A stretch of 64,000 nucleotides of DNA, from contig CM028335.1 in the NCBI GenBank assembly GCA_016647705.1, forward strand, positions 25,417,212 through 25,481,211, given 5' to 3'. The notes under the pieces were generated by a model. The model did not search any database. It was not told the DNA's origin and was given only the letters and a program-made list of their open reading frames with translations. Positions 8,855 to 43,605 of this stretch are shown here, in pieces (within the stretch, counting starts at the first letter, position 1; each line of letters begins with the position of its first letter). Source of the DNA: Eucommia ulmoides. Its lineage: Eukaryota > Streptophyta > Magnoliopsida > Garryales > Eucommiaceae. A program made the position numbers and the translations under genes.

Positions 8855-9052
8855 CATTAGCTATTTTTTAAGGTTTGAGTTTGATGTTTATGCCAATGAG
8901 CAAGGCTACCGCCCCAATGAGAGAACGTCATGTGTCAGGGCATGTGCCCCAATCGGCATCAACAAATACCTTGATTTGGATCATAGATTTGGCAAGAAAG
9001 AAAAGGCCTTGTCCTGGAGCTTTCTTCAAATATTGAAGGATGCAAAGAGTTG
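8855..9052 (-). pseudogene. Copia-A RNase H fragment, left of nested insertion
   Basis: Read on the minus strand, this segment gives a copia RNase H stretch with a YLKKAPGQGLFF-like phrase, then VFVDADWGTCPDT. The last includes the conserved DADW(A/G) motif. It continues the polyprotein fragment at 15498-16411: the two halves were separated by the insertion at 9053-15497, which duplicated AGTTG. The element breaks off near 8855, where homology to copia ends, and no 3' LTR is present. Confidence 0.75.
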
Positions 9053-11193
9053 TGTTGATCCTAAGATTTTGATGAACAATTAAGTATTGATGTTTTGGTG
9101 GAACTAATGTTTTAATTGAGTATTTCAGTGATTTAAAGTTTCAATGATGAAGTTGAAGATATTGAAGATAAAATTAAATGAATCCTAAATGATAAACTTG
9201 AAGATACTGAAGATCAAATTAAATGGATGTTAAATGATGAAGTTGAAGATTTAAGAGTTTGAAGAAATTAGGAAAAACAACCCAGGTAAATTTCAACTCT
9301 TAATATCCCATTTAGGAACACATACGGCACAAAATGTTTTTATTATTTATGTGTATTTTGATAAGATGAATTTATTTGCTCATATGTGTATTTGAAAAGA
9401 AATATTTATAAATGGTTAAAATGGAATTTGAAAAAGTTAGTGGAGCTAATTGAGAAAAGAAATTAGTTAAAGGGGCAAAAAAATATAAAAGAGAAAGAGT
9501 TTAAAATGTGATCAGAGAATAGATGTAGAAGGTAGCAGTCGACTGAGGAGTCGACCGTCTAATGGTGGTTGAACTCTCTGAATTGACGAGTCGACTGACA
9601 AGTCGACCGGTGAGATTAAATGAAACTCTCTGAATCAAAAAGTCGACCGAGCGGTCGACCGATGAACTGCATTAGCTACATCCTGAATCTCCGAGTCGAT
9701 TGGGCAGTCGACTGGTGGCTCTGTTTCAAGATCATGTGGATTCTGAAATCATATCTAAAAGTAGCCCTTTTTTGTTAGGATTTGAGAGAGATTTAAGGGA
9801 TTTGGTGATATTTAAGATATGGTTCATATATTAATTAAATCCTATTGATTTGGTACATTAAATATTAATGTTTATCAATTTGGTATTTGAAATAGTTTAT
9901 ATTCTTATTAATTGAGATTGAGAAATATTTTGGGGATTTAATTGAGAGATTTGAAAGTTGTTTTTAATTGAAATTGAACCTAAACGAATTCCTTATGATA
10001 TAAGAGGTCTATAAGAGTATTTTATTGTCATGAAACTTGTAAACTAACCGTTAGGAGGCTGATTACATGTGCCTTTATATGGACCTGCGAATTTCATTAA
10101 TCATTAAGCAAAAAAAGAGAAAAATCATATCATATTATATTGAGAGCTTTTATAAGAGTTATCCATCTGAAATATTGTGAGCTTTTTTGAGAGACGATCT
10201 TGAAGATCAACTGCTATTAATTTGTACTGCTACTGGATCTTAAGTTATATTGTTTTATCTATTCTTTCTGTGGATTCCGGGTGAGATCTTTCCATTTATA
10301 TTCTTTCACTGCATTATTTGATTATTATTTGGAAATTGATCTTAGAAATTATTTCTGATTTTTGAAGAAAATATTTTTATAAATAATTTCTTAAATCTGA
10401 TTACGTACTCCAATTTGTTACCCATATCTTGTTAAAATCATATTTCTGTATCTCACGTTTTTCTATCACTAATTGGGATATTAATTGAGTTATTATTTAT
10501 CTGGGGTGGTAGAAGCTCATGAGTGAGATTTACTTCTTATCAATTTGTGTATTGGTGAGTTGTGACGGATTAAATATCATTGAGGATATTTAATCAAAGG
10601 TAGCCAGGTTTCAGTCTCTTCTTGTAAAGAGATTGAGGTAGTGATTCTTCCTAGATAAAAATTGTGTTGTAAGTGAATTGTAAAGGTTTCATCATTACCT
10701 ATGAAAAGGATACTTGGAGTGTTATGTGAGATTTTGATTCTTGAGCAGTAGTGATAAAAAGAATTAGGTTAATCTTTAGCTTGTAAAAAAATAGGTTATT
10801 CTTGAGCCTGGAAAAAGTAGAGGTTATTCCTTAACCTTAGAAAATGAAATTGTAAAGGTTGATTCTGAGCTTGTAAAAGAATTGGTGTACGGGTTTGGTT
10901 CTTACCTTTAAAGGGATCTTGATAATTAGTGGGTGCGAATCTCCGTGGGGCTCTATGGACTAGATTAGCTAAGAGTAGTTTGGTGAACCAGGATATATCT
11001 TGGTGTGCTGCATTATTACTTTGTTATTTTTGTTGTTTGGGTATACACCTAGTTAATTGATTTGTTCCGCTGTGATATAAAGATAATAATTAATTTAGGT
11101 ATAAAATTAATTATTTGATTTATTAAATTTTATTCTGATTATTTTTTAATTACCCAATTCACCTCCCCTCTTGGGTATTATACTGGGCCAACA
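9053..11193 (+). repeat. 5' LTR of TR-GAG copy 1 (2141 bp)
   Basis: It starts TGTTGATCCTAAG and ends GGGCCAACA, the canonical TG...CA. It holds an array of GTCGAC-type palindromes (9538-9715) and a TATA-like TTTATATGG near 10072. The 3' LTR lacks about 400 bp that are present here (9980-10378), so this is the fuller copy. Confidence 0.85.
9538..9715. promoter_or_regulatory. GTCGAC palindrome array in LTR U3
   Basis: Seven copies of GTCGAC plus variants (such as GTCGATT) lie within about 180 bp, often extended to GGTCGACC and set between repeats of the phrase CTCTCTGAAT. Every other LTR of this superfamily in the window has a counterpart: 14252-14420, 34730-34915, 39970-40216, 41930-42095 and 56300-56550. 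The array precedes the TATA-like site by about 350 bp, as an upstream activating region would. Function is inferred only from position and repetition. Confidence 0.55.
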
Positions 11194-11195
11194 AT

Positions 11196-11207
11196 TGGTA
11201 TCGGAGC
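11196..11207 (+). other. Primer-binding site, initiator tRNA-Met type (TR-GAG copy 1)
   Basis: TGGTATCGGAGC lies two bases after the 5' LTR and differs at one position from TGGTATCAGAGC, the complement of the plant initiator tRNA-Met 3' end used by most copia elements. It marks where minus-strand synthesis would start. Confidence 0.85.
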
Positions 11208-11262
11208 TAGTTTAGCTCGTTAGGCTTAACATCCTAGCTAAACCGGTCACGTGCGCACACTA

Positions 11263-12326
11263 TGGATGATGTATTCTGTGTATCGTCTTTTGATAGTGGT
11301 AATTGCGTATATGATAATGTGGTTCATGATTCTTGTGATTTTAGTGGTAGCGATGGAGATGATGATAATGAAAATATCCATATTGTTATGAAAAAATTAC
11401 TTTATTTCACACTACGTTTTGCTAAAGAGAGCTTGAGTTGAAAAAGAAAAATCGCTTCTTTTGAAAATAGTGGAAAATTTGTTCAAAAATCTAAAATACA
11501 TTTGAATGATTATTGTAGTTTAAAAGAGTTTTCGGAAGTTGTTTTTGAAATTAATAATTTGCTCTCTAAAGTGGATTATCTTAAAAATGAAAATAAAGTT
11601 TTAAAAAATAAATTTGATATGATTTCCAAGCAAAAGTTAGATTTTGTTTTTAAAATCGATTTATTCAAGAAAATTTTTGAAAAATCAAAATCCGACCTTA
11701 AGTCTATTTCGAGAGATTCTGAAAATGATTTTTCTAAACAAAGTGGATATACTTCATCGTCTCATCTTTCATCATAGACCAGTGATGGTTATGTTTCTAT
11801 TGTTAGAAATTATTTACGTTTTACATCTCGTGCTTTTTATGATAAATCAGATTTGAGATGTTATTATTGTAATAGAGTTGGACATTTTAAAGTATCATGT
11901 CCGTTTCGGAACCCTAAGTTTATGTCTAATAAGGACGGATCCAAAATGAAATGAATACTGAAGAAAATTGTTGAAATGTCTTGTGCAGAATTACAAAATG
12001 TCGGAAGTGGACCTAAAGGAATAGTTAAAGAGTTTATATCAAATCCAAATCCACAAGCGACATGTGCAAAGCGAAAAGATGCACTAAAGACACGAGGTGA
12101 AGTTGTAAAGAAACCACAAGAGATATGTGCTAAGAGAAAAGCTGTACTAAAGCCAATATGGGATAGCACAAGAAAACTACAAGTGATCCGTGCAAAAGGA
12201 ATCTTAAATAAATCAAATGGAAAAGATCAAAGGAAGAAAGGATATAAACAATCCAAGAAGAATTGCGCACCTAAATCAATTATGAGCTCAAATGAGGTAA
12301 AAAGTAAAAGTCACCTCAAAAAATAG
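11263..12326 (+). pseudogene. Gag-like zinc-knuckle protein of TR-GAG element (broken)
   Basis: The frame starts at ATG 11263 with an acidic segment (a run of G-S-D-G-D-D-D-N-E-N-I-H). A lysine-rich coiled-coil-like part follows (about 11500-11760), then a CCHC zinc knuckle CYYCNRVGHFKVSC near 11861, then a basic tail with imperfect repeats of CAKRK and KKPQ. Stops interrupt it, for example at about 11439, at 11775 and at 11952-11954. At the last site copy 2 of the family (32030-33139) has a tryptophan codon, so TGG became TGA here. The order acidic, coiled coil, CCHC resembles the C-terminal half of SIRE-type Gag. It would bind element RNA in virus-like particles; that role is inferred. Confidence 0.65.
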
Positions 12327-13749
12327 AAAAGGTATTCCTAACCCTCCGCATTTTAAATTTATTAAATTTGTTAAAGAGGGAGAGTCTCGACTTACCAAAT
12401 AGGTAAGTTGTGATGGTTTCTAAGACCTATTTTCAATAATGTGTTTACTTGTTGTCTTAGAAACATTATTTGGTGATTATGACAATCACATTTAGTTAAG
12501 GGGTATTAACATGTCTTTATATGCTTATATCAAATAGTAATCATGTGTTAATTTTAAAGCATGTTATGTGATTTAGAAAATTAATTGAGTTAAGTTTTTT
12601 TATTAATCTTGATTTATTAAAATGCATGATATTTTATACTGAGATAAATTGAATGACTTAATTTGATCATGATAATATTTGTATGGTTAATATGAAAGCA
12701 TGAGATTTTTTTTTTGACACCATATATGTGATTATTTGAATATTCATGGTGTATCAATCTGTGCTTAATGTTTTAAATTGATACTTTGTGCATATGGATA
12801 TATTTAGAGATATTAAATATCTAGCTTTAATGTATGATAATATGTTCTTATGTTGCATGTCTACTGATTTATAAATGATTATTATTATTCTAAAAGAGAA
12901 ATGAGATTTTATGAGAGAAATATGCATTTATCCGTATTCATGCATGCACTAGATTTAGGATTGATAAAATGCTTGAGTAATGCTTCCTATCTTAGTGTGC
13001 TAAAGAACATATGTTTTGTTTTTATAGAGGGAAGACATTGTTTTGGTATCATGAGTAAGGCATATGGAGTTAATTGATAATTATATGATTACATGCTATA
13101 TTGTTGAAAGATTTTAATTGCCTCTCCTAAGCATGAATTGACTTGTTTATAATTATATATGGGAAGAAGTGTTTATAAGAGGAGTAATATTATGTCATAC
13201 TTATATTGAAACACGTGTTTTGTTGAAAAGTTAAAAGAGTAAATATGTTTGTGAAAAATTAATATCATACTATATTGCTTAAATATAATGATTATTCACC
13301 TATGCGTGAATATTATTCATTTACAATTTGATAGAGGAAGATTGCATGCTCAGAAAGATATTTTTGGTGTGGATCGTGTTGGATTGAGTAGACTTGATAT
13401 TTATCTATAAAAATGATCCACATAGTATTGATGTATTATGCTTAAAAGATTAATTTAGTTAAATAAGTTAAAAGTTGATCCAATGAGCTTTTTATGATGC
13501 TTGCCCAAAGTGAGTTACATGTGTGTTCCCCTCCTACGTAAATTTATTTTTGAAGATGACAAATGGGGAGAATTTGTTGATATTTTATTAAGGAAGAGTT
13601 TTATTAATGAATTTATTATGCTTTATTGATTATGCTTTATAATATCTTTATACTTATGTTTAAATGAGTTAAAGAACCCGTCCTCAAATTCAGAGAGAGT
13701 GTGGTTATATTTTATTTTGAAGAAAATATCAAAGTTAATTGTCATCATA

Positions 13750-13771
13750 AAAAAAAAAAAAAAAAAGAGAT
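13750..13771 (+). other. A-rich polypurine tract before 3' LTR (TR-GAG copy 1)
   Basis: An A-run ending AAAGAGA directly precedes the 3' LTR start TGTTGATCC, the expected place for plus-strand priming. It is almost all A, and the preceding sequence stops at GTCATCAT. At the equivalent point copy 2 (near 31030) joins pol sequence instead. Confidence 0.6.
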
Positions 13772-15497
13772 TGTTGATCCTAAGATTTTGATGAACAATT
13801 AAGTATTGATATTTTGGTGGAACTAATATTTTAATTAAGTGTTTCAGTGATTTAAAGTTCCAGTGATAAAGTTGAAGATATTGAAGATCAAATTAAATGG
13901 ATCCTAAATAATGAACTTGAAGATACTGAAGATCAAATTAAATGGATGCTAAATGATGAAGTTGAAGATTCAAGAGTTTGAAGAAATTAGAAAAAACAAC
14001 CTAGGTAAATTTCAACTCTTAATATCCCATTTAGGAACACACACGATACAAAATGTTTTTATTATTTATGTGTGTTTTGATAAAATGAATTTATTTGTTC
14101 CTATGTGTATTTGAAAAAAAAAATTATAAATGGTTAAAATGGAATTTGAGAAAGTTAGTGGAGCTAATTGAGAAAAGAAATTAGTTAAAGGGGCAAAAAT
14201 GTAAAAGAGAAAGAGTTTAAAATGTGATCAGAGAATAGATGCAGAAGGTAGCAGTCGACTGAGGAGTCGACTGTCCAATGATGGCTGAACTCTCTGAATC
14301 GACGAGTCGACTAACAAGTCGACCGGTGAGATTAAATGAAACTCTCTGAATCAAGAAGTTGACCGAGTGGTTGACTGATGAACTGCATTGGCTACATCCT
14401 GAATCTCTGAGTCGACTGGTGGATTTGTTTTAGGATTATGTGGATTCCGAAATCATATCTAAAAGTAGCCATTTTTTGTTAGGATTTGAGAGAGATTTAA
14501 GGGATTTGGTGATATTTAAGATATGGTTCATATATTACTTAAATCCTATTGATTTGGTACATTAAATATTAATGTTTATCAATTTGGTATTTGAAATAGT
14601 TTCTATTCTTATTAATTGAGGTTGAGAAATACTTTGGGGATTGAATTGAGATATTTGAAAGTTATTTTTAAGTGAAATTGAACATAAATAATTTCTTAAA
14701 TCTGATTACGTGCTCTAATTTGCTTCCCATATCTTGTTAAAATCAGATTTCTGTATCTCATGTTTTTCTATCACTAGTTGGAATATTAATTGAGCTATTA
14801 TTTATCCAGGGTAGTAGAAGCTTCTAAGTGGATTTACTTCTTATCAATTTGTGTATTGGTGAGTTGTGACGGATTAAATATCATTGGGGATATTTAATCA
14901 AGGGTAACCAAGTTACAGTCTCTTCCTGTAAAGAGATTGAGGTATTGATTCTTCCTAGATAAGAATTGTGTTGTGAGTGAATTGTAAAGGTTCCATCCTT
15001 ACTTATGAAAAAAATACTTTGAGTATTGTGTGAGGTTTTGATTCTTGAGCCGTAATGATAAAAAGAATTAAGTTAATCTTTAGCCTGTGAAAATATAGGT
15101 TATTCTTGAGCTTGGAAAAAATAGAGATTATTCCTTAGCCTTAGAAAAGAAAATTGTAAAGGTTGATTCTGAGCCTATAAAATAATCAGTGTACAGGTTT
15201 GGTTCCTACCTTTAAAGGGATCTTGAGAATTAGTGGGTACGAATCTCCGTAAGGCTCGGAGGACTAGACTAGTCAAGAGTAGCTTGGTGAACCAGGATAT
15301 ATCTTGATGTGCTGCATTATTACTTTGTTATTTTTGTTGTTTGGGCATACACATAATTAATTGATTTATTCCGCTGTGATATAAAGATAATAATTAATTT
15401 AGGTATAAAATTAATTATTTGATTTATTGAATTTTATTCTGATTATTTTTTAATTACTCAATTCACCCCTCTTCTTCGGTATTCTACTAGGCCAACA
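13772..15497 (+). repeat. 3' LTR of TR-GAG copy 1 (1726 bp, internally deleted)
   Basis: This LTR starts TGTTGATCCTAAG and ends GGCCAACA. It aligns with the 5' LTR throughout except for a gap near 14682, where 5' LTR positions 9980-10378 are missing; the sequence resumes at ATAAATAATTTC. The gap removes the TATA-like region. LTR copies are identical when they insert, so this deletion arose afterwards. A GTCGAC array lies at 14252-14420, with several sites changed to GTTGAC. Confidence 0.85.
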
Positions 15498-16411
15498 AGT
15501 TGCTTGAAGATGTGGAGTACATTGAGCAACCAAGTATTGATTAAGACGATTAACCAAGTAACTAAGATCGGGTCTGGTGATGGTAAGATAGAGTAACTTG
15601 CCAATCTATCATTTGTAGCTAGTAGGATGAGTAAATAAATTACCATCAGAAACCTGAGGTTTGCTTCCATAGGAACAAAAATAGGTTTACACCCCAAATA
15701 ACTTGCATCTAAATGCAACTCCAAGGCATATTTGCGTTGGCAAACGGAGAATCCTACCGCAAAATGTACTACCTCGAGACCCAAAAAAATACTTGAAAGG
15801 GCCTAAATTTTTCATCTTGAAGCACTTACCAAGGGTTGACGTAAGAGTCTCCATGGTTGTTGAATCATTAATAACAATAATAAGATCGTCAACATAGACC
15901 CAAAGTGCCAAAAACGAATGACCAACAGTTTTGTTAAACAAGGAATGATCACAAGCAGATTGAGTAAAGCCTTCGGAGAGCAAAACAATGGAGAACTTAT
16001 GGAACCATTGTCTGGAAGTTTGTCGTAATTCGTATATAGATTTGTGAAGTTTACAAACGGTATTTGGAGGTGAAGTCTCCCCCTGTCGATGAGAGTAACC
16101 CAGGGGTAATATGATATAGATTTCTTCAACGAGATCATCATGGAGGAATGCATTGGTGACGTCCAGTTGGGTAAGAGACCACCTCGAAACAGCAGCTAAG
16201 GAGAGTAAAACTTTGACAGTAACCAGTTTGTGTCAAGAATGTTAATGCCCTTTTGTTGTGTAAACCCCTTGGCCACGAGACGTGTCTTATAACATTCAAC
16301 AGTATCATCCGCAAGAAATTTGGTCTTGTTGACCCATTTACAACCCACCAATTGTTTTCCAGGAGGTAATGAAACAATGGACCATGTTCCATTGCTTTCT
16401 AAAGCACGCAT
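15498..16411 (-). pseudogene. Copia-A reverse transcriptase and start of RNase H (broken)
   Basis: Minus-strand fragments in alternating frames give a copia reverse transcriptase. Its opening block is RALESNGTWSIVSLPPGK at about 16411. Further on come VGCKWVNKTKF and LVAKGFTQQKGI, an LDVTNAFLHDDL block with the first catalytic Asp, and WVYVDDLIIV with the YVDD core near 15890. The RNase H lead-in CQRKYALELHLDASYLGC follows at about 15720. Several frameshifts make it non-functional. It continues into 8855-9052 on the far side of the nested insertion. Confidence 0.85.
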
Positions 16412-16804: not shown

Positions 16805-17761
16805 TTATGACTGTGAATTAGAAAATGGAAAAATGGTTTCATAAAAGTGCACATTTCGAGAAATGTAGACCGTATTGCTCTCTAAGTCAAAGAGTTTGTA
16901 TCCTTTATAACTGAAAAGATAGCCAATGAATACAAAAATTCGGGCACGAGGAAAAAACTTGGTACGATGACTAGGAAGAGTGGAACCAGAACATAGGTAA
17001 TCAAAGCTACGTGAATGGGCATAAGTAGGCTTTGTACCATGTAACAGTTCAAACTGAGTTTTGTTTGCCAATAGGGGAGATGGTGTGCGATTAATAAAAT
17101 AAACGACGGTGAGAATAGAATCACTCCAATAGCAAAGAGGGACACAAGATTGAAAAAGGAGTGCTCGAGCTACATTAAGGATATGTTGGTGTTTTTGCTC
17201 AACAACGGAATTTTGTTCTGGTGTGTCAACACAAGAATGATAAGGAAGAATGCCTTTAGAGTGAAAATTTTTTGTGAAGGCCAATTCAGGGGCATTATCG
17301 AAGAGAACTGATTTTATGGATTTGGTATATTGAGTTTGGATGAGAGTGTAAAAGTCAGGGAAAATAGTAAGAACATCAGATCTGGCCCGTAAAAGATAAA
17401 CCCAAGTAGCTCGAGTGTAATCATCAACAATGGTGAGAAATGATTTGTGTCCAGCGATGGTGGCAACATGAAAGGGTCCCCAAATGTCAATATGTATTAA
17501 ATCGAAAAGTTGGGCAGACATGTGATTATGAGAAATAAATGGGAGACGTTTTTGCTTAGCCATATGATAGATGCGACAATGGGAAGAAAAATGAGACAAA
17601 GAATTGGAAAGTTGTAATTCATGATGAAGCATTTGAACTTTTACATGAGATGGATGTCCAAGGAGGAAATGCCAGATATCACATTTAGACATTACAGAAC
17701 AAGAAAAAACTGAATTACAAAGTGGAACTCCCAATTCGAAAAAATAAAGATTGTTGCGGCG
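16805..17761 (-). CDS. Copia-A GAG-pre-integrase and integrase region (309-codon open frame)
   Basis: A single open frame of 309 codons (17734-16805) carries the pre-integrase zinc region (WHFLLGHPSHVKVQ, then the altered CRIYHMAKQKRLPF). The integrase core follows: first Asp in DLIHIDIWGP, second in LFDNAPELAF, Glu in PEQNSVVEQKHQ, so the D-D-E residues are kept. The C-terminal block GYLFSYKGYKLFDL is also recognisable. The N-terminal end is cut by the gypsy insertion at 17767. Integrase would insert element cDNA into the chromosome. It is part of a dead polyprotein and not an independent gene. Confidence 0.85.
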   Translation of the reverse strand, partial: RRNNLYFFELGVPLCNSVFSCSVMSKCDIWHFLLGHPSHVKVQMLHHELQLSNSLSHFSSHCRIYHMAKQKRLPFISHNHMSAQLFDLIHIDIWGPFHVATIAGHKSFLTIVDDYTRATWVYLLRARSDVLTIFPDFYTLIQTQYTKSIKSVLFDNAPELAFTKNFHSKGILPYHSCVDTPEQNSVVEQKHQHILNVARALLFQSCVPLCYWSDSILTVVYFINRTPSPLLANKTQFELLHGTKPTYAHSRSFDYLCSGSTLPSHRTKFFPRARIFVFIGYLFSYKGYKLFDLESNTVYISRNVHFYETIFPFSNSQS

Positions 17762-17994
17762 TCTACTGATAGGTGTAAATTACCTACATATTTTCAATCC
17801 GAATTTATTAGTTTCCTAGTACGTTTATAGTTATTTTTATGTGTTTTTAATTAGTTTTTCTCTTTTTTTATTAAATCAGGTGTGTGGGAAAAAAAGATAG
17901 GAAACTGAAGCGAAAACGATAAGATCAAACCAAAGCGGTTCGAAGTTACGGTGGATAAACAAGCTCGGAGGCTAAAAGATTAAACAGGCCCACC

Positions 17995-18270
17995 GCCTAG
18001 GCGTCCAGACCACCGCCTAGGCAGTGAAGAATCTGAGAAAAGAGAAAAATATTACTAACGGACGACTGCCTAGGCGAAGATTCCTTCGCCTAGGCAAAAA
18101 TCCAGCAGAAGAAGAAGATGGGCTACTGACAGCCGCTCGTCTACGCGAAGTTTTCTTCGCCTAGGAGAAAATCCAACAGAATGTTCTCCCAGTCCACCGC
18201 CTACTTCACTGCCTAGGTGATCGACCGAACTTCCTTAAATTCGCTTAGGCAAAGTTTTCTTCGCCTAGGC
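17995..18270. promoter_or_regulatory. CGCCTAGGCG palindrome array in gypsy LTR U3
   Basis: Seven CCTAGG cores, most extended to GCCTAGGC or CGCCTAGGCG, plus three degenerate copies, lie within about 275 bp. They end about 50 bp upstream of the TATA box. The right LTR has six cores at 22256-22495. The arrangement suggests repeated protein-binding sites in the promoter region; no binding protein can be named from sequence. Confidence 0.6.
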
Positions 18271-18315
18271 GAATTTCCCCTGCGCAGTCTTGAGATATTT
18301 TTAGGATATTTTGGC

Positions 18316-18323
18316 TATAAATA
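18316..18323 (+). promoter_or_regulatory. TATA box of gypsy LTR
   Basis: TATAAATA sits in GGCTATAAATACTCC and is followed by a pyrimidine-rich stretch with CTCTCTCTTGC, as expected around an LTR transcription start. The right LTR has CATAAATA at the corresponding place (minus strand, 22195-22202), a T to C change. Confidence 0.6.
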
Positions 18324-19305
18324 CTCCCTCTCCTCCCCCTTCTCCGGTCTCTCTCTTGCTCTCTTGCATTTTTTAGCCCTTTAGGCTATATCTAAGGGTA
18401 TATTTAGGGATTTTGGAGGGAGAGCTCTCAACCCGAGGTGGAGGATCAACGAGGAAGCGATTAATCGACGTTTCTAACGGTAAATCTTCGGATATCGGCT
18501 AAGTCGCTTGTTTTCCCTCTCTGTTTTATTTATTTTGGTAATTGTTGAGCATGTTTAGATCATTCTACATTGTATAAACGGTTAGGGCCATGAGTTAAAC
18601 ATGGATTGTAATAGGGATTAACGTATTATTTATGAAAATGTAGTTTTGGTTGAATTTGTGTTTCGTTCTTGGTTGTTCCTCGTATGTTGATTGTGTTGCC
18701 GTATTTTCTATGATTATATGCTAGTTTAGATATATTGAGAATATGAGGTTTGACACTTGGGAGAGGTAACCCCGGATTCGGATTAGGGTTAACACAACAC
18801 GACAATTTAACGACCCAGGAGGACGTTAGAAAGTGTGCAATCGATGACGTTGGGGAGAGACTCACGTGACCTAGAGTCGTTAAGATGTTGAGGGGGACTT
18901 CGGCGTTGACATGAAGTCATGTATTCCCCTGTCTTACACTCGGAAGAGGTGGCGAGGGAGTTTACGAACCGAGATTGTCGAATACGCTGAACGCCGTTAG
19001 TGTTAACTAAAACGAAATTAGACGCATTTAAGTAAAAAGTTAATCCCTAGGCAATCTACTCCCCTAAACAATCTCAAATTAGTATTTATAGTATAGTTAA
19101 CTTAATTAGTATCTTAGTTTAGTATTAGTAATTAATTAAAATCCATTTTTAGCGCCTAGATAAAATTAGGTTATGACAATCGCGATACTCGATAGTAATC
19201 TCAACCAATCCCTGTGGATACGATACCCGACCAAAAGGTCCACTATACTAAAACTTGATCTGTACACTTGCGGTGAAAGTAGCAGCGCATTATTTGCGGC
19301 CACCA

Positions 19306-19935
19306 AGTTTTTGAAATACCCCCAAACTCAGAATTTGGCTAGTCCTCGAGCCAAACACCCACACAATACGAAAAATTATACAAACTAATTACGAAATTAA
19401 AAACTATAAACGAAAAACATGAAAAACAAAAATGTGTAAGTTTTCATTATCATCTACTGGCCGAAAGATTTTTCCCTCATCGGCCTCCAATCCTATCAAG
19501 TTCAAGCATAAATCACACCATATGATGTTCTAGAATTTTAATGTTCAAAAATAGTTAGCTTCATTCTAGATCCTATTTAAGTGTGTGTGTGATTAAACTC
19601 AAATATACTACTATCCATTGATTAGATGTGATTATCCCTAAATAAAGATCATGACTAGAACCTTTAAGGTATAGGAAATCCATACGCCTGACCTGGGATC
19701 TATTCTCCACTAATGTAGGCTCGGAGGTTCATGAAGATCAGTAGGGCTTGGTTTGATTTTTGGAAAATGGCCAAGGGTATTTTGGAATAGAAAATAGGTT
19801 AACGTCATCAACTTAACGTTACCCGAGGCACATCGCTTGGCACACTCACACTCGAAACCCCATAGTTATAATTGAAACAACCCCGAACATACGTTTAAGA
19901 ACGTCGTACTCACTTTTCATGTCAAAAAGAACTGA

Positions 19936-20008
<73 letters not shown>

Positions 20009-21186
20009 TAACACACCCCCAAACTCATTCGAATTTCTACAATTTTAGGAGTGTGCAAAAATGATTAAGTAACACACCCCAAAACGTATTCGAATTCTTA
20101 CAACTTTAGGAATGTGCAAAAATATATGAACGACAAAGGACAAGTGAGTATTCGAATACCGAACCAATTAGAATTTCGGCCTAAACCCAACCGCTCACAT
20201 CAAGTAGCGAAATGCTAACTTGATTCACTCAAATTGTGTCTTTAGTTTAGCGATAAAGGTTTGGAAAAAGATCAATCAGCTAGGGTATTTGTTAAGTATT
20301 CAGAATTGAAATGGCTTTTAGGCTTTGACAGGGTAACGAAGGGTAATGATTTATTAGGGTAATCTTAAAAGGCTCAAGCGATCAAATAAATGCCTAAATC
20401 ATATCTTCTAAACAACCTCACCTAGGATTTCGCCTCGAATTTCTCCCAAATCAAGTTCTAGAATCCCTATTGTTATGAAATTGATTGACGGATAATCGGT
20501 TTTAAATCACTAAGATAGTGCTATATTGAGTTTACGTGCTCGTGTATTTAGGGTCTACAATAAATTTTACTAAGACGATACATTAAGCACACAGAACACA
20601 CATGATTACACTCGACCTCAGAACAATCAGGGGACAGAGTCATCATCGGATAAAGGCCTAGATGACGTCAAAACGTAGCACAAAATAGCATCTAAACTAA
20701 ACAAACTAATCCTAAACAAGCATGCAAACGTATAAAAACAGTAAAACATGCTAAAAAAAACATATACACATACTAAAACATACTACACATCACCACAAAC
20801 TCAACACCAGTAATGTCCAAAACAAGCCGTCATCGATCCCAATGACAGTATATAGCATGATATTGAAAACGAGGGTTTAGAACACATACCTAGGAGGCGA
20901 GAGGATCTCGCCTCCGACTCAAATTGACGGAGATGTATCTAACTTATTTGTGACCCTGGGTTACCTCCTAAGAAGTACTTGGTTTAATGTCCTAGGCTCG
21001 ACACATGCCCTCAAGACTGGCGAGATTTTCAATGATCGAACCGCAGGAGTACCTGTCGATCTAACATCTTCAAGCATCCTGTAGGAAAACAAAAACAAAA
21101 CTACAAACGAAAATTATGTACAAAAGAAATGCCTAGATTAAAATCGAGTTATTTACTCCCAATATCGATAGCAATCAACAAGACAA
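19306..21186. other. Non-coding interior of the gypsy derivative
   Basis: Read on the minus strand, 21186 downward is leader sequence. Near 20950 comes a GGAGGTAACCCAGGG phrase of the type that follows pol in Tat/Athila-like elements. Near 19316-19360 lies TTTGGCTCGAGGACTAGCC, then AGTTTGGGGGTATTT, the typical polypurine tract of this group. No gag or pol domain is left. The stretch also holds an ATT microsatellite (about 19937-20008) and two 61-bp tandem units (20010-20131). Confidence 0.65.
19937..20008. repeat. ATT trinucleotide microsatellite, about 24 units
   Basis: An uninterrupted run of ATT lies inside the gypsy derivative. It is followed directly by two 61-bp tandem units starting AACACACCCC (20010 and 20071). 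Such a pure array is likely to vary in length between individuals. Confidence 0.9.
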
Positions 21187-21204
21187 TCCCCGGCAACGGT
21201 GCCA
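21187..21204 (-). other. Primer-binding site, tRNA-Asp type (gypsy derivative)
   Basis: On the minus strand TGGCACCGTTGCCGGGGA follows the right LTR after a short spacer. It matches the complement of the plant tRNA-Asp(GTC) 3' end except for A in place of G at one position. Tat/Athila-like gypsy elements use this primer. It fixes the orientation of the right LTR as the true 5' LTR of a minus-strand element. Confidence 0.8.
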
Positions 21205-21210
21205 AAAACT

Positions 21211-22712
21211 TGGTGGCCGCAAATAATGTGCTGCCACTTTCACCGCAAGCGTATGGATCAAGTTTTAGTATAGTGGACCTTTTGGTCAGGTATCGTATCC
21301 ACAGAGATTGGTTGAGATTACTATCGAGTATCACGATTGTCATAACCTAATTTTATCTAGGCACTAAAAATGGATTTTAATTAATTACTAATACTAAACT
21401 AAAATACTAATTAAGTTAACTATACTATAAATACTAATTTGAGATTGTTTAGGGGAGTAGATTGCCTAAGGATTAACTTTATTTACTTAAATGAGTCTAA
21501 TTTTGTTTTAGTTAACATTAACAGCGTTCGGCATATTCGACAATCTCGGTTTGTAAACTCCCTCGCCACCTCTTCCGAGTGTAAGACGGGGGAATACGTG
21601 ACTTCGTGTCAACACCGAAGTCCCCCTCAACGTCTTAACGACTCTAGGTCACGTGAGTCTCGCCCCAACGTTATCGATTGCACACTTTCTAACGCCCTCC
21701 TGGGTCGTTAGATTGTCGTGTTGTGTTAACCCTAGTCCGAATCCGGGGTTACCTCTCCCAAGTGTCAAACCCCGTATTCTCAATATATCTAAACTAGCAT
21801 ATAATCATAGAAAATACGGCAACACAATCAACATACGAGGAACAACCAAGAACGAAACACAAATTCAACCAAAACTACATTTTCATAAATAATACGTTAA
21901 TCCCTATTATAATCCATGTTTAACTCATGGCCCTAACCGTTTATACAATGTAGAATGAGCGGAACATGCTCAACAATTACCAAAATGAAGAAAACAAATA
22001 GGGAAAACAAGCGACTTAGCCGATATCCAAAGATTTGCCGCTAGAAACGTCGATTGATTGCTTCCTTGTTGATCCTCCACATCGAGTTGAGAGCTCTCCC
22101 TCCAAAATCCCTAAATATACCCTTAGATATGGCCTAAGGGGCTAAAAAATGCAAGAGAGAAAGAAAGAGACCAAAGAAGGGGGAGGAGAGGAGGTATTTA
22201 TGGCCAAAATATCCTAAAAATATCTAAAAATATCTCAAGACTGCGCAGGGGAAATCCTCCTAGGCGAAGAAAACTTTGCCTAGGCGAATTTAAGGCAGTT
22301 CAGCTAATCGCCTAGGCGGTGGACTGGGAGAACATTCTGTTGGATTTTCGCTTAGGCGAGCGGTTGTCAGTAGCCCATCTTTGTCTTCTGCTAGATTTCC
22401 ACCTAGGCGAAAGAATCTCCACCTAGGCGGTCGTCCGTCAGTAACATTTTTCTCTTTTCTCAGGCGGTGGTCTGGACGCCTAGGCGGTGGGCATGTTTAA
22501 TCTTTTAACCTCCGAGCTTGTTTATCCACCGTAACTTCGAACCGCTTTGGTTCGATCTCATCGTTTTCGCTCCAGTTTCCTATCTTTTTGCCCCACACAC
22601 CTGATTTAATACAAAAAGAGAAAAACTAATTAAAACACATAAAAATAACTATAAACGTACTCGAAAACTAACAAATTCGGATTGGAAATATGTAGGTAAT
22701 TTACACCTATCA
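21211..22712 (-). repeat. Right LTR of the gypsy derivative (1502 bp, minus strand)
   Basis: On the minus strand it starts TGATAGGTG at 22712 and ends GGCCACCA at 21211, followed by the primer-binding site. It carries six CCTAGG palindromes (22256-22495) and a degraded TATA box. Together with the left LTR it forms a 1.5-kb inverted repeat with a 1.9-kb spacer, which could fold into a long hairpin if transcribed through. Confidence 0.85.
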
Positions 22713-22717
22713 TCTAC

Positions 22718-23077
22718 CTTCCCAGTTGTCAAGACTCGAGTAAGGTCTTGAATTACACATGCAGAAGAAGAAAACACCGCAAGAATGACTAAGAGTAAGA
22801 GCACTTACACTAAGATTAAAAGAAAACATGGGAACAAATAGAATAAGGAATTGGATAAGGGCACAGTACCAATGCGAGTGATAGCAACATTCTGACCATT
22901 AGAAAGTGTAACAGTGGTGTTGTGAATCATTTTGGAATGAGAAAACAGAGAGATAGAGCAACAAACGTGATGTGTTGCACCAGTGTCGATAACCCAAGTA
23001 TGTGGAGGAACCGAATGATGGGAAAGGAAAATTTTAGTAAAGGGGTTACCATTAACATGTGAAATCGAAGGTTCCAT
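22718..23077 (-). pseudogene. Copia-A protease region
   Basis: The minus-strand frame contains WVIDTGATHHVCC, the aspartic-protease signature (DTGA) of copia polyproteins, followed by a VTLSNGQNVAITRIGTV-like block. The protease would cut Gag-Pol in the particle. The frame breaks near 22805, and the region is cut on its 3' side by the gypsy insertion. Confidence 0.8.
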
Positions 23078-23083
23078 GGCCGA

Positions 23084-24262
23084 TTAGGACTCAGATGTGG
23101 AGATTCCATGAGTATGGAGCTGCGAGCTGAGGTATGAAATCAGTTGTTGAACCTGATTTGGTGAAAATTGCTCAGAGAGGGTAGATAACGTCGTAGCAGT
23201 AGCAGTAGTGGGTAGATATTTGGTCAAACAATAGTGTTCTGCTGTGGATTGAAGAGAATTCTGATAGGTTGTGATTTGGGCTTTAGACTTGGGCTTGTAC
23301 CTAGGGGGATACCCATGCAATTTGTAGTAGTGGTCCACTGAGTGACCACTCAACCCATAATGAGAACATTGTGGCTTCATTCACCGACATCGAAATGGAG
23401 AAGAAGAGATCACCACTATAGGAGCAATTAGAGTTGGGAGGAGAGAAGGTTGAGAAGTCGTGACACCAAAAGCGAGAGAATCATGCGGTGCAGAAGAACC
23501 AGCACTAAGAGATCGTTGTCGCTCTTCCTGAACAATGAGATTGAACACCTTCGTAACATAAGGCAGAGGATTGAGCTTTAGGATTTGACCGTGCATACCA
23601 GCATAAGATTCGTTGAGACCCATTAGGAATTGCATAACATATTTGTGTTGTTGATGATCGGTCCACAATTTCATACCACCACTTTGCCAAAGAGGAACAG
23701 GTTGGAAATTCTTAAGCTTATACCAAAGGGTTTTCAGCCAAGTGATATAGGTATTGATGTCGAGAGATCTGTGAGAAAGACCATGAAGTTGTTGTTTGAT
23801 CTGGAAGATGTATGGAGCATTGCTCTGACAAAATTGTTTATGGAGATCTGACTAGACAGCGTGAGCACTATCGAGGTAGAGAAGACTATCGGTGATTTCT
23901 TCAGAGACAACATTAAGAAGCCAAGAGGTGACCATACTATTGCAACAAGACCAGATTCTAGTGGAGGGATTATCCGAAGAAGGTTGCCGAAGAGTGTCGT
24001 CCACAAAACCGAGCTTGTTCTTGGCATTGAGGGCCATCAACATCGCACGATTCCAGGTATTGTAATTAAGGCCAGTAAGTACATGAGAAACTAGGGCTAA
24101 ACCAGGATGATCCCCATTGTGTAGAAAAAATGGATTGTGAATATTATCCATTGAAAAGGAATCCGGTTGAGATTGAGTAGTGGTTGAAGAAGAAAGAGGG
24201 GTAAGGGATTGGAAACGATTGTTAGTAGTGGTTGACTGTTGATTACCACTACCACGAGCCAT
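23084..24262 (-). pseudogene. Copia-A Gag (nonsense-mutated)
   Basis: The frame starts at ATG 24262 (MARGSGNQQSTTT). It has the copia Gag block NPFFLHNGDHPGLALV, then LTGLNYNTWNRAMLMAL and AKNKLGFVDDTL, then VMQFLMGLNESYAGMHGQIL and VQEERQRS. Near 23375 the zinc knuckle reads CSHYGLSGHSVDHYYKLHGYPP, where the second and last cysteines have become tyrosine, so zinc binding should be lost. An in-frame TAG at 23852-23854 stands where relatives have tryptophan. Gag would form the particle; this copy cannot. Confidence 0.85.
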
Positions 24263-25209: not shown

Positions 25210-26571
25210 GAAACCAAAACTCTAAGATGGCGCTTGGTGGCATGGAATTGAAGCCTTGGAATTGGAATTAAAAATAAACGCAAGTAAATTTTCAATTTTT
25301 CACACGGGTTCATCTCTAATTCCAATTCCAAGACTTCAATTCCATGAAACAAAAATAAATATGTGGACAACAAAAATTGAAGGCCATTGCAGATGCCTTG
25401 GAAATAAGGAAGAAGACAAAAATTTAGGTAAAATTTGTTGCAGATGCCATGCATTTCGTTTTTAATCATTCTATTTTTTAAGTTTTGAGAAATGTTTATC
25501 ATTAAAAGAGACTAGCAAAGGTTACAGAAGATTGTGACAGAGAGCATATCACAACTATATCTAGCCCTTCTCTAGGAAATAAAAAACAACCAACCAAAGA
25601 ATACAGAATGTAATCGTGAGCAAGCTACAACTAGGGAGGGAATGGCTCGGCTGGACAAGAACCAAAACCAAAACTCTAAGATGGCGCTTGGTGGCACGGA
25701 ATTGAAGCCTTGGAATTGGAATTAAAAATAAACGCAAGTAAATTTTCAATTTTTCACACGGGTTCATCTCTAATTCCAATTCCAAGACTTCAATTCCATG
25801 AAACAAAAATAAATATGTGGACAACAAAAATTGAAGGCCATTGCAGATGCCTTGGAAATAAGGAAGAAGACAAAAATTTAGGTAAAATTTGTTGCAGATG
25901 CCATGCATTTCGTTTTTAATCATTCTATTTTTTAAGTTTTGAGAAATGTTTATCATTAAAAGAGACTAGCAAAGGTTACAGAAGATTGTGACAGAGAGCA
26001 TATCACAACTATATCTAGCCCTTCTCTAGGAAATAAAAAACAACCAACCAAAGAATACAGAATGTAATCGTGAGCAAGCTACAACTAGGGAGGGAATGGC
26101 TCGGCTGGACAAGAACCAAAACCAAAACTCTAAGATGGCGCTTGGTGGCACGGAATTGAAGCCTTGGAATTGGAATTAAAAATAAACGCAAGTAAATTTT
26201 CAATTTTTCACACGGGTTCATCTCTAATTCCAATTCCAAGACTTCAATTCCATGAAACAAAAATAAATATGTGGACAACAAAAATTAAAGGCCATTGCAG
26301 ATGCCTTGGAAATAAGGAAGAAGACAAAAATTTAGGTAAAATTTGTTGCAGATGCCATGCATTTCGTTTTTAATCATTCTATTTTTTAAGTTTTGAGAAA
26401 TGTTTATCATTAAAAGAGACTAGCAAAGGTTACAGAAGATTGTGACAGAAAGCATATCACAACTATATCTAGCCCTTCTCTAGGAAATAAAAAACAACCA
26501 ACCAAAGAATACAGAATGTAATCGTGAGCAAGCTACAACTAGGGAGGGAATGGCTCGGCTGGACAAGAACC
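25210..26571. repeat. 454-bp unit repeated three times in tandem
   Basis: Units at about 25210-25663, 25664-26117 and 26118-26571 are almost identical. Only a handful of differences can be seen, such as GGCATGG against GGCACGG, and ATTGAAGG against ATTAAAGG in unit 3. The same open frame recurs at 25256, 25710 and 26164, so the spacing is exactly 454. Each unit contains an imperfect hairpin whose arms, ATGGAATTGAAG(C/T)CTTGG extended by AATTGGAATTA, match at 28 of 29 bases in unit 1; this is a probable MITE. No protein family is recognisable, so the open frames are probably incidental. The near-identity implies recent unequal exchange, or possibly an assembly artefact. Confidence 0.9.
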
Positions 26572-28806
26572 AAAACCAAAACCGTTCAGGAAACTGCAAA
26601 CATGAGACCACACAACCACCTCCGATTTTTGTTATGTCATTCTTTTTTCAACCTGAACCGCACGTTTTTTGTATAAAATTGAAGCCAACCCGTGAGCCCG
26701 TTTATAGGTCATTTAGTTTTAATATTTCACTATTTAACCCCTAGTTCTTTTGGGTAGTTCATGAAAAAAGAACTATTTCATCTCCATCCATTATGTCTGT
26801 ATCATATTTCAATGCATGATAACCTAATTCATTCAAATTGCTTGTTAGTCATTAAAAGGATTAAGGCAGCTTTTGAAACAAGGTAGAAGCATACACCCAC
26901 AAAATCTAAAACAACAAACTACATGTGAAATATGAGCATCTCCAACATTAATTAGGCCAAATTTATTCTGTCATTTATCAAATATTGCCATGAATAGTAC
27001 TTTAGCACATCTAATTCAAAGTGAGTGCTCCAACATATGAGGCAAAATCGATTATCATTTTTTTAAAAGTATTTTTATATTAAAATTAAAAATAAAAATT
27101 AACTTAGAATTAACAGTAGTTTTTAAATATATTTTTATATTAAAATTAAAAATTAAATTTAAATTTAAAATATTTAATATTATGTATTTTTTTATGTTGT
27201 TTGATTTTTTTAACTTAAATTAAATTATGACAATAATTTAAATTTAAAATAAAATTAAAATTCCAAAATAATCCAAGATTAATTTAACCCTAATTCACAG
27301 ATAATAGCCAAGTTGTTTGAGCTTATTTTGACATAAAAAATGCCAAAATTTGAGATGAAATAGAGGAGGACCGAGGTGCTAGAGTTGCTCTAAAAAATTG
27401 TTATTATTGATAGACCAATTGAGAACCAGCCACCCCAAACTCTAAATTTGGTGTTGAACAATACAATGTTATTTCGTTTTCATTTTTCCAATTTATGGTC
27501 TGGCATGATATGTTTGTTTATCAATTCTTTAAACCATTACCTCTAAAACATAGAAGAAAAAAATAGAAAAAAAAAAAAAAAAAAAAGGGAATTAAAGAAC
27601 ATAAAAAATTAAAATATATTTATCTTCTATTTTTTAAATATTTTTCATACTAAGTCATCATACGTTTCTTCTCATATTATTACAACAGCTTTTTATAAAA
27701 AAAAATATACCGAAGAAAGTGCATTTCAAAATTATGTTTTCAAATTAAATTATTAATTTTTATGTTGATTTTGTAATTTCAAAATTATTTCTAAATAAAA
27801 ACATTGTAAAAAATAAATTATATCTACTTTCTAGATAAAATAAATTTTTATTATAAAATTTTCTATATAATATAGTTAAATTAAGACCCGATCAAACTCA
27901 CCTAGAAAAATCATGTTTCAAAATTCTTTGGAAAACGAATTGTCATCTTTTAAAAAAATTAACAACTAATCACTTCTTTAAAAATTTGATTTATTAAAAA
28001 TAAACAAAATTCAACATTAAACACCATCAGGTACAATATCATTTTCTAACACTTTATAATAATATTAGTTAAAAAAAATACAAATACAAAAACAAAAAAA
28101 TATATGAAATAAATAGCCTAATTATATTAACATTAATTTACTAGAATGATTTTTTAATTACATTATAAACACAAAAGTTAAGTTCTAGTGAAAATAGATT
28201 ACAATTATTGATTTGTTTGTTTTGAATGAAAGAGTAGCATGCGTATATATTAAATCTGGAGAGTTAAATGCATATTATTTTTTAATAATAAAATTTTCAA
28301 AAGTTGACTATGAATTTGAGTAATGAAATAATGTATGAAAATAAAAGAAATCACATATTATTTGTTTGTTGTAATCGAGTGTAGGAGACAATACAATATT
28401 TCAAAATTATTTAAAGAGAGCGATTTGATCAAACGTTGGCCTCCTACTTAACATCTCTATTTTTAAAATAAAATATTTTTACTCTTAATTTTTTATATTA
28501 TTTTTTATAAAATAGGCTATGAAAATTTATTTGAAATCGGGAGGTCATTGGTTTTTGAAGAAAATAAAAGGATGGAAACATTTTGCACTACTTAAAAATT
28601 CATAATTTTGGAAAAAAAGATTTTGTGGTTAAAAGTTGTGTTTAAATCAATTAATTTACATTGTCGCTTCTATTAATTAATATCCATCAATTTTTTTAAT
28701 ATAATATTACGAAAATGATTTTGTATTATTTTTAAAAATAAATTCGAGCGAAAGACGAACTCAGATCCCAAAATTCAAATAAAAGTAAGATAGAAAAATC
28801 AAAACG

Positions 28807-30354: not shown

Positions 30355-31035
30355 ATCTAGGTCAGTTGTCCCCTTTAAGTATTGAAAAATTCGCTTAATA
30401 GCAGTCAAGTGCGATTCTTCAAGACAAGAATAAAATCTAGCACAAAGACAAACATTATACATAATGTCAAGTCTACTAGCAGTTAAATATAACAGACTAC
30501 CAATCATACCTCGATACATTTTTTCATTAACACTTTTGCCCGTATCATCTTTGTCTATCTTTGTAGCCGTTGCCATGGGAGTTTTTTACTCTTTAGCACC
30601 TTCCAAGCCATATTTTTTTAAAAACTCCTTGGTGTACTTAGTTTGATTTATAAATATTTCTTCTTTGGTTTACTTAATTTGCAATCCAAGAAATAAATTC
30701 AACTCTCCCATCATACTCATTTCAAATTCAACTTGTATTATCTTAGCATATTCTTGGCAAAGATCCTCATTAGTAGATCCAAAAATAATATCATCAACAT
30801 ACACTTATACTAATAGGATATCAGAATCAGTTTGCTTCACAAACAGTATTATATCACAAATTCCCCTTCGAAAATCGTTTTCGATCAAATATCGGCTAAG
30901 TTTCTCATACCAAGCTCTAAGAGCTTGTTTGAGCCCATACAAAACCTTGCGAAGTTTAAATACGTGATCGAAAAATTTATCACTTTCAAATCTCGGGGGT
31001 TGTTCCACATAAACTTCTTCTGATGATGATGACAA
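30355..31035 (-). pseudogene. SIRE-like copia reverse transcriptase / RNase H fragment
   Basis: On the minus strand the RT block EEVYVEQPPRFE begins right at the junction near 31030. HVFKLRKVLYGLKQALRAWYEKL follows, then a VYVDDIIFGS core after one in-frame stop. The RNase H lead MATATKIDKDDTGKSVNEK comes next, then YRGMIGSLLYLTASRLDIM and ESHLTAIKRIFQYLKGTTDL. Homology ends near 30355. The catalytic part of RNase H, the polypurine tract and the 3' LTR are missing, so the element is 3'-truncated. Confidence 0.8.
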
Positions 31036-32029
31036 TTAACTTTGATATTTTCTTCAAAACAAAAATATAACCACACTTCTCCTGAATCCGAGGATAGGCT
31101 TTATAACTCATTTAAGCATCATAATGAATATTTCAAAAAATATAATCAGTAAAGCACGAAAAATAAAAATAAAAAAATACTCCCCCTTAATAAAACATCA
31201 TCTAATTTCTCCCCATTTGTCATCTTCAAAAACAAAATTTAGGGAGGGGGGAACACAAATGAACATTACTCTAGACAATCATATAATATACTTGAAAGAG
31301 TAAGCCTAAATGAATTAAATCCAAATATATATAATTCTTTTAAAAACACATTGAATCAACTCATAACTTTAACTTTAAGAATCAAAACTCATTTTAACAA
31401 ATCAACTTTTAGGCATAAAACATCAACACTATGTGGATCATCATTATAGATAAATATCAAGTTTATTCAATTTATCAAAATTCACACCAAAAACATCATT
31501 CTTAACATTCAATCTATCACTATATAAGTGTAAACAAACTAATTCATTTTAAGAAAAAAAATATAATCTTTGAAGCACTAAGACATGAAATATCTCTCAA
31601 TAAATAACATGCATATTAAAAATGTTATCTCGTAACATGCTCAATCCCTTACACAGTAATAATCATTTAAAAATTCAGAGGATATGAGACATATAAGAAT
31701 GACCTATTATCATGTATATAGCCAGATACTTAATTCATATAAATATATCCAAGTAAGCATATAATCATGGTCTTGAACAATTCAACTCAAATAAATCATT
31801 CTTTATCTTTTAATTCACCTCAAACAACATGCATTTTAATAAATCAAAATTAATAAAAACTTAGTTCAATTAATCTTCTAAATCACATAACATGCTTTAA
31901 CATTAACACATGATTACTACTCAATATAAGCACATTATAAAAATATGTGATTACATTTTAACTAAATGTGATTTTCATACCTATTTGGCAAGTTCGGCAC
32001 CTCCCTCTTTAACAAATTAAATGAATTTA

Positions 32030-33139: not shown

Positions 33140-33208
33140 GGTGTGTGCACGTGACCGGTTTAGCTAGGATGTTAAGCCTAACGAGCTAAAACTAACTCTG
33201 ATGTCAAT

Positions 33209-35351: not shown

Positions 35352-35379
35352 CATCAGTTAACGCCTCATCCATATTTTT

Positions 35380-43390: not shown

Positions 43391-43505
43391 AATCGAATAT
43401 CAACACTGCTGAATTGAATATCAACACCGCCGAAGAACATCACGAAAACGAACACAGCCGAATAACACCACGAAAACGAACAACACCGCCAAATCGAACA
43501 AAAAG
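43378..43505. repeat. Minisatellite of AACACCGCCAAATCGAA-type units
   Basis: Imperfect units built on AACACCGCC(A/G)AA(T/G)(C/A) and TCGAATATC recur about six times with spacing near 20-24 bp. The array lies exactly between the broken LTR end and the 5' region of the dynamin-like fragment. Confidence 0.65.
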
Positions 43506-43605
43506 CCAAAAAAAAAAAAAAAAAACATATTTTAGCTTTATGTATTTGATTCATTACTCTCATATTCAATCATTCATTTGTTTAACGTTTCTTTCTCTCT
43601 CTAAA

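Follow-up and report, generated by a model that had tools for sequence, protein, structure and literature searches.

Inverted long terminal repeats in a non-coding retrotransposon of Eucommia ulmoides and a recurrent seam between polypurine tract and inverted leader that points to aberrant reverse transcription

Hughes and Coffin are said to have described, in 2002 (Genomics 80:453), an element of the human endogenous retrovirus HERV-K in which the long terminal repeats (LTRs) are inverted relative to each other. The part of PMC3625200 considered here presents HERV-K124 with inverted partial LTRs and leaves the mechanism unresolved; its authors speculate on LTR inversion together with template switching and cite Hughes and Coffin (2002) for the mechanism of LTR inversion. 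For plants, one sentence in the section of PMC3559844 drawn on here mentions an inverted repeat of LTRs at the 5' end of a Ty1-copia insertion in exon 1 of the Brassica rapa allele Crr1a-Chiifu-401, with target site duplications (TSDs) conserved between alleles and a solo LTR inferred from it. A Gypsy-25 subfamily of the locust is stated, in an excerpt of PMC8786324, to harbour an inverted pair of LTRs, and DIRS-1, which uses a tyrosine recombinase, is described in a passage of PMC5633606 as integrating circles. Template switching at R was proposed for the Angela, Squiq and Opie complexes, in which two elements share a third LTR that lies between their interiors (Sabot and Schulman 2007, PMC1950507). 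Among further papers, PMC2151762 concerns primer geometry only and PMC3465219 short terminal inverted repeats. Here we describe an LTR element with inverted LTRs at positions 17767-22712 of a 64,000-nucleotide stretch of the Eucommia ulmoides genome (GenBank assembly GCA_016647705.1, contig CM028335.1, positions 25,417,212 to 25,481,211, forward strand), called the window below, together with ten junctions of the same type, its own included, found in this genome.

The family of the window element, which we take to be of the LARD type and presumably of the Ty3 superfamily, resembles plant non-coding LTR elements of that kind in its LTRs of ~1.5 kb, its primer-binding site (PBS), its polypurine tract (PPT) and its non-coding interior of ~1.9 kb, and differs from them in that the 3' LTR is inverted in the window copy and nine others. 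With HERV-K and HERV-K124, as far as the cited part of PMC3625200 goes, it shares the opposite orientation of the two LTRs within one insertion; those are single cases of a human endogenous retrovirus, whereas ten copies with a common type of tRNA-matching seam are present in one plant genome. The Brassica insertion (PMC3559844) is likewise a plant LTR element with inverted LTRs and TSDs, but its inversion lies at the 5' end instead of the 3' end, and the sentence on it, which gives no seam or PBS, leaves room for a mirror or tail-to-tail case in the sense used below. The Angela, Squiq and Opie complexes (PMC1950507) are similar as proposed products of aberrant reverse transcription with a single integration and 5-bp TSDs; there the switch is at R, while in the window element an LTR is inverted and the seam lies at the PPT and the tRNA end. 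DIRS-1, as portrayed in the passage of PMC5633606, has inverted terminal repeats too and relies on another enzymology, whereas the window element has the PBS, PPT, TG...CA ends and 5-bp TSD of the integrase type. The original prediction, that no described plant family is known to have this structure, is refined in two respects: inverted LTRs in plants had already been reported, and the 4123 normal junctions described below speak against a separate family. Inverted LTRs in plants are not new, and what is left of the claim is the seam type and its recurrence, for which no report was found in the open-licence literature searched, where a minority of the papers listed was opened.

The two arms of the window element each carry the U3 start TGATAGGTG at the outer end. 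The right arm (21211-22712, minus strand, 1502 bp) is the 5' LTR in normal order, and the left arm (17767-19305, plus strand, 1539 bp, with the end CCACCA) occupies the position of the 3' LTR and is inverted. Along the minus strand we read U3-R-U5, the leader AGTTTT (21205-21210), the PBS TGGCACCGTTGCCGGGGA (21187-21204), the interior (19328-21186), the PPT GTTTGGGGGTATTT (19314-19327), CA-AAAACT and the inverted LTR, which ends at the exact U3 start. On the plus strand, CA-AAAACT is the leader followed by TG (19306-19313), the TG being the first two PBS bases and a copy of the 3'-terminal CA of the tRNA; leader and TG are fused directly to the PPT and would be the remnant of a cDNA end. The arm alignment and our reading of the sequence confirmed the predicted inverted LTRs with U3 starts at both outer ends, with exact coordinates. 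The fusion to the PPT held as well, but not the nine-base leader AAGTTTTTG that was said to precede it, since its initial A still belongs to the LTR, as the final base, and its TG is the start of the PBS. A 1.5-kb inverted pair is not a chance product.

The PBS (21204-21187 on the minus strand) matched 17 of the 18 bases of our query, which we take to be the complement of tRNA-Asp, and nowhere else in the window did a site come within four mismatches. The part of PMC5904367 used here shows a PBS of the same core for an Arachis element. The interior, with an ATT/TTA microsatellite near 19937-20008, contains no long reading frame: the longest stop-to-stop frame touching it is 104 amino acids and extends into an arm, and no gag-pol frames were found in the reading-frame listing of the element. 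It is homologous to the interiors of one copy with direct LTRs (L027) and of one with inverted LTRs (L032). The PBS stands beside the 5' LTR and the PPT beside the 3' LTR, where it adjoins the inverted leader and LTR; TG...CA ends (TGATAG...CCACCA) and a 5-bp duplication are those of integrase-type elements, although both outer ends are U3. The LTRs are not direct, whereas those of the relatives L013, L022, L027, L029 and L030 are. The window element is a derivative, and not a regular member, of the integrase-type LTR retrotransposons.

The sequence around the insertion belongs to one copia element on the minus strand. Its downstream part (16805-17734) matches Pfam SH3_retrovirus above the cut-off and rve and gag_pre-integrs below theirs; its upstream part (22718-23173), identified by eye as a frame-shifted protease and pre-integrase region, abuts the downstream part in protein relatives. 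The pentamer TCTAC flanks the element at 17762-17766 and 22713-22717, a match with a chance of 1/1024. Of 120 protein relatives listed, 23 were picked and compared with the window by tblastn; 13 matched both sides of the insertion and 10 the downstream side only. In two of the 13 the sides abut exactly, P0009 between residues 125 and 126 (residues 24-125 at 23002-22718, 126-443 at 17767-16823) and P0021 between residues 99 and 100 (residues 1-99 and 100-415 on the two sides); in three (P0048, P0003, P0049) they overlap by 2 to 6 residues, and in eight there are residues of the relative between them that match neither side. Since copia relatives abut across the insertion, the second TCTAC is a duplication and not copia sequence. 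The claim that a TCTAC duplication flanks the element, with copia resuming in the expected order, was thereby borne out, and the proposed check on the empty site found it present in copia relatives without a second TCTAC. These comparisons show the window element to be one clean insertion.

Over 1498 aligned columns, the common leader included, 91 substitutions (75 transitions, 16 transversions) and 61 gap columns separate the arms, and the Kimura two-parameter distance is 0.064; 33 of the differences are in CpG context. T states and A states are each split almost equally between the two arms (21/24 and 17/13), and this even split fits decay after insertion. At a substitution rate of 1.3e-8 per site and year, the distance would place the insertion about 2.5 million years ago. 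At 18609-18743, 135 consecutive aligned bases are identical to the right arm in arms otherwise 6% different (permutation p 0.01), possibly a conversion tract or a sign of constraint. The U3 regions (17965-18290 and 22250-22520) hold many copies of a palindromic motif like CGCCTAGGCG, and three of the four larger length differences between the arms (12, 16 and 20 bases) fall within this stretch.

Subsequently, the genome (G000; 946,670,599 bases, 947 Mb, 391 contigs) was searched for the family. A U3 query returned 5352 first-look candidates, of which 40 were scored, and copies with direct LTRs and a homologous interior, for example the five relatives named above, were present in several of 20 ten-kb stretches around the hits. 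The normal junction of PPT and U3 (pattern TTGGGGGN{3,24}TGATAGGTG) occurs at 4123 places, against 6 for the reversed control; in the first 100 of them listed, the 3' boundary reads TTTGGGGGTATT followed by TGATAGGTG or is one T shorter, that is, TTTGGGGGTAT(T) followed by TGATAGGTG. Rather than forming a family of their own, the inverted copies look like aberrant products that have arisen repeatedly from a large, normal family with direct LTRs.

The search for further inverted-LTR units that had been suggested for this locus yielded ten junctions of the same type, in which the PPT runs into an inverted leader and U5; nine are well supported and one is weak. The pattern TTTGGGGGTN{2,24}AAAACTTGGTGG gave 3 places (control 0) and the wider pattern TTGGGGGN{3,24}AAAACTTGG gave 42 (control 14, an excess of 28, ten of which are confirmed). 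The 42 comprise the 3 inverted loci already known, 13 that were fetched and 26 that were left because their letters are unlike PPT and inverted leader; long gaps occur among the latter, and some of these may be further fusions. Homology placed the LTR in one orientation and the interior in the other at seven of the 13 fetched loci; the remaining six (L038, L042, L043, L046, L047, L048) had no homology and were rejected as inverted junctions. As both patterns are exact, ten is a lower bound, and the ratio of 10 inverted to 4123 normal 3' junctions, ~0.24%, is a rough guide only.

In the sense of the element and with loci given by contig and position in Mb, the seams read TATTT-CA in the window copy, TATTTT-CA at C6:57.64, TATT-CA at C17:29.23, TAT-GGCGCCA at C10:40.71 (L036), TA-CCA at C10:48.27 (L037), TAT-AA at C10:43.96 (L044), TATTGA-CA at both C6:22.09 and C4:24.79 (L039), TATT-AA at C4:44.12 and TATTTGATAG-AA at C2:35.06, and every one of them continues with AAAACTTGG, the inverted leader and the U5 end. 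Thus the window copy shows the same order as the others, PPT, bases of the tRNA 3' end, inverted leader and inverted U5. PPT and leader are separated by 1 to 7 bases that match the 3' end of the tRNA primer or its copy (A, CA, CCA, GGCGCCA); the full 18, which the pattern would have admitted, occur in none of the ten, a statement that covers the fetched places. On the other side, the seams keep to a range of about -2 to +6 bases around the normal boundary, TAT(T) followed by TGATAGGTG, and some include TGA or TGATAG, as if U3 had just been entered. There are nine different seams among the ten loci, in subfamilies only 50-60% alike. The two loci with the same letters, C6:22.09 and C4:24.79, are probably separate events, judged by flanks only 57% and 68% alike. 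The matches at C4:24.79 are weak (E 5e-4 on each side; 75-78% like L041), and C2:35.06 retains only some 60 bases of interior. The three C10 copies are 89-96% alike around the seam and have three different seams; nine different seams, three of them within this trio, argue for separate events. The trio is one subfamily on one contig within 8 Mb, and none of the seven other confirmed loci is on C10.

Both outer ends were read at six of the ten loci, and at all six they are U3 (TGATAGGTG at 11 of 12 ends, TGATAGATG at the left end of the C17 copy). The TSDs are perfect in the window copy (TCTAC) and at C6:57.64 (AATTG), C10:48.27 (GATTT) and C10:43.96 (AATAC), and agree in 4 of 5 bases at C10:40.71 (GTCAC/ATCAC) and C17:29.23 (ATGGC/GTGGC); at any one locus, four or more matching bases out of five have a chance of 16/1024. 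The whole length was read for the window, C6:57.64 and C17 copies, and for the C10 trio the seam and ends, with what lies between taken from spacing. The spacings used for LTRs placed in this way, in the trio and at the C7, C4 and C51 loci below, were ~1.7 kb and 3.7 kb, as in relatives. One flank of C10:43.96, GGAGGTATT, resembles a PPT end and has no interior homology beyond it.

We consider it probable that a non-coding LTR retrotransposon was reverse-transcribed wrongly, through a jump at the PPT nick, and then integrated normally. The growing plus strand would reach the PPT nick, or come within a few bases of it, and jump onto the 3' end of plus-strand strong-stop DNA, which consists of U3-R-U5-leader and 1 to 7 copied tRNA bases. 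This DNA would be copied backwards to run-off, giving an inverted 3' LTR, a seam of PPT, tRNA 3' bases, inverted leader and inverted U5, and a new end that is the exact U3 end, since the template stops there; integrase would then join two U3 ends and produce a 5-bp duplication. At several loci the seam, the tRNA-matching bases, both U3 ends and the duplications can be read directly. The PPT-side position of the seam coincides, within about -2 to +6 bases, with the start of the plus-strand strong-stop DNA that has to be displaced. An integrated 3' LTR has neither leader nor PBS bases and cannot have supplied those found next to the inverted LTR. It is well supported that the aberrant event took place before integration. 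We infer a template jump rather than a ligation, with strong-stop DNA as the donor. The original prediction of an aberrant strand transfer or cDNA recombination, by which a palindromic-ended molecule arose and was still integrated, gains support from the ten junctions, the tRNA-matching seam bases and the TSDs at six of six loci.

Several observations weigh against a jump at the PPT nick as the common origin of these copies. The clustering of the seams is partly selected, as the pattern fixed both anchors and the places fetched were those resembling short seams of PPT and inverted leader. The AA seams, found at three loci, require an additional A, C6:57.64 carries one or two surplus T, and bases matching the tRNA are indistinguishable from bases of the PBS. 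The differences between the window arms are spread unevenly (1 to 17 per 150-column bin, p 0.008), possibly through later conversion or chimerism. In the C10 trio, the outer 158-bp ends are 95-98% alike within a copy and 91-96% alike between copies, so that their pairing is not clear-cut. Furthermore, end joining predicts most of the same seam letters, and the C17:29.23 copy is not of the simple type: a second interior shares its inverted LTR, for which a full plus strand as template or the closure of a hairpin is needed.

The main rival to a template jump is ligation of trimmed ends, to which we give a minor though appreciable share of belief: a strong-stop duplex or a full cDNA, with the tRNA trimmed, would have been joined to a cDNA stopped at the PPT, either by alternative end joining or by closure of a hairpin that links the 3' end at the PPT with the 5' end of the minus strand. 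Two other kinds of structure speak for it. At C17:29.23 (7213 bp in total) the order is an LTR with an internal deletion, PBS, interior, PPT, CA, inverted LTR, normal PPT', inverted interior and a third LTR, the two interiors being sisters in the interior tree (100/99). The whole resembles a palindromic dimer centred on a single LTR, such as the closure of a hairpin would produce. In addition, the pattern CCAAGTTTTTGN{0,24}CAAAAACTTGG, in which two U5-leader ends meet tail to tail, was found at 7 places (control 0) with TG|CA or a longer part of the PBS at the seam. Judged by homology, four of these are simple (C51:172834, L061; C4:40434668, L055; C5:45978952, L059; C7:40967057, L057), two are more complex (C15, L056; C13, L058), and one (C3, L060) is a chance match and was rejected. 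At LTR distance, an LTR start preceded by a PPT stands on either side of the C51 locus and on one side of the C7 locus, where the outer right end was sought once and not found. The tRNA-proximal end is thus fused to two kinds of partner, the PPT at ten loci and another U5-leader end, as free ends would be, and in the simple tail-to-tail class arms meet that are only 63-80% alike over ~200 bases. Ends drawn from two co-packaged RNAs would show such a degree of likeness, which suits the jump as well and suggests that RNAs of different elements may have shared one particle in these cases.

Against ligation, a double-stranded end at the PPT is required, which is no normal intermediate because the minus strand continues through U3. 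The seams with TGA or TGATAG fit a strand that was already displacing, and none of the ten junctions has lost more than 2 bases on the PPT side. In the jump's favour, the mirror structure, an inverted LTR beside the PBS, was found at no place in the genome with the one pattern used (CACCTATCAN{0,24}GCCGTTGCCGGGG), while the normal 5' junction (CCAAGTN{0,24}GCCGTTGCCGGGG) occurs at 1146 places (control 0); within reach of these patterns, only the 3' side is affected.

It is improbable that the inverted copies make up a separate lineage and transpose with their LTRs inverted, in the manner of DIRS elements or a foldback transposon. Ten places in one genome would suit such a lineage, as would the near relationship of the window, C6:57.64 and C17 copies, all with a CA seam, and the likeness of 89-96% around the seam in the C10 trio. 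Trees were built from 16 interior pieces and from 42 U5 pieces, the latter with 18 of 39 inner forks open. The interior tree unites the window copy, the direct copy L027 and the inverted copy L032 in one clade, in which L027 and L032 pair as sisters (86/82, below the starred level); the two C17 interiors make up a separate clade. In the U5 tree the window arms are sisters (99/91), as are the L032 arms (99/90), and copies L027 and L014 fall in the clade with both. Direct L027 thus groups among inverted copies, by a fork with weak support in the interior tree and left open in the U5 tree, and nine different seams in subfamilies that differ so widely also stand against a single lineage. Moreover, the inverted form lacks direct R repeats for the first strand transfer, and the 5-bp duplications and TG...CA ends indicate ordinary integrase. 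Together, trees and seams would favour separate events over one inverted lineage.

That the 3' LTR was inverted after integration, by illegitimate recombination or by gene conversion from the 5' LTR, is very unlikely. Recombination of LTR elements after insertion is common in plants (PMC1950507), but it would have had to introduce leader and PBS bases that an integrated 3' LTR does not contain, with breaks exactly at the border of TSD and U3 and at the PBS start at each locus, and to leave the TSDs intact or nearly so. Least credible of all is an assembly artefact, for although repeats of such size can be misjoined, the arms are too divergent to be a single sequence placed twice, the host frame and the TSD adjoin the element at either side, and seams of this kind exist elsewhere with other letters.

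Other candidates were rejected. An assembly inversion is unlikely, since turning the interior round would not change the orientation of the arms and the seam type recurs elsewhere; a nested insertion would leave an integrated neighbour ending at CCACCA, with no leader or PBS bases after it. Autointegration, studied by Shoemaker in 1980, reportedly gives a circle with an inverted segment. Foldback or MULE-type DNA transposons with long terminal inverted repeats have a 9-bp duplication and no PBS or PPT, whereas the window element has a 5-bp TSD and both sites. DIRS and other tyrosine-recombinase elements make no target-site duplication, whereas TSDs are present here and there is no long frame. 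Pattern scans of viral contigs and of genome contigs, two protein searches using frames that span the U5/leader region and a search of Rfam gave nothing useful for the window element.

If a jump at the PPT nick is the true origin, the seams are a natural record of intermediates that are seldom caught, showing how far the tRNA primer was trimmed, at which point displacement synthesis stalled and whether a particle held two different RNAs. Plant integrase would then be able to join two U3 ends with a normal 5-bp duplication, the U5 end being dispensable in vivo. Direct-repeat finders would probably miss such insertions or label them as solo LTRs or foldback elements. Both LTR promoters of the window element face inward, and each has a TATA box (TATAAATA at 18316, plus strand, in the left arm, and CATAAATA on the minus strand within the right arm at 21211-22712). 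A transcript from either promoter would contain a stem of roughly 0.96 kb, which makes inverted repeats of ~1.5 kb with inward promoters candidate sources of silencing RNA. More tentatively, and with less than even confidence, we propose that plant LTR elements have a regular, unrecognised side path, in which reverse transcriptase would jump from end to end, at the PPT nick or at run-off, onto plus-strand DNA with 1-7 tRNA bases. The resulting cDNAs with two U3 ends would be accepted by integrase, the copies would archive tRNA trimming and the packaging of two genomes, and hairpin RNA might be directed against the own family.

The window also contains other repeats. Three head-to-tail copies of a 454-bp unit, 99% alike and with internal inverted repeats, lie at 25211-26582, and another repeat family is present at 9044-15502 as direct partial duplicates 92% alike and 4.7 kb apart. 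This family also has a reverse-orientation copy, 80% alike, at 31026-35353, with more pieces near 38.5-40.6 kb and 55-58 kb. Finally, a frame at 43303-44121 on the plus strand matches Dynamin_N of Pfam (E 4.9e-25) and is probably an exon of a dynamin-related gene.

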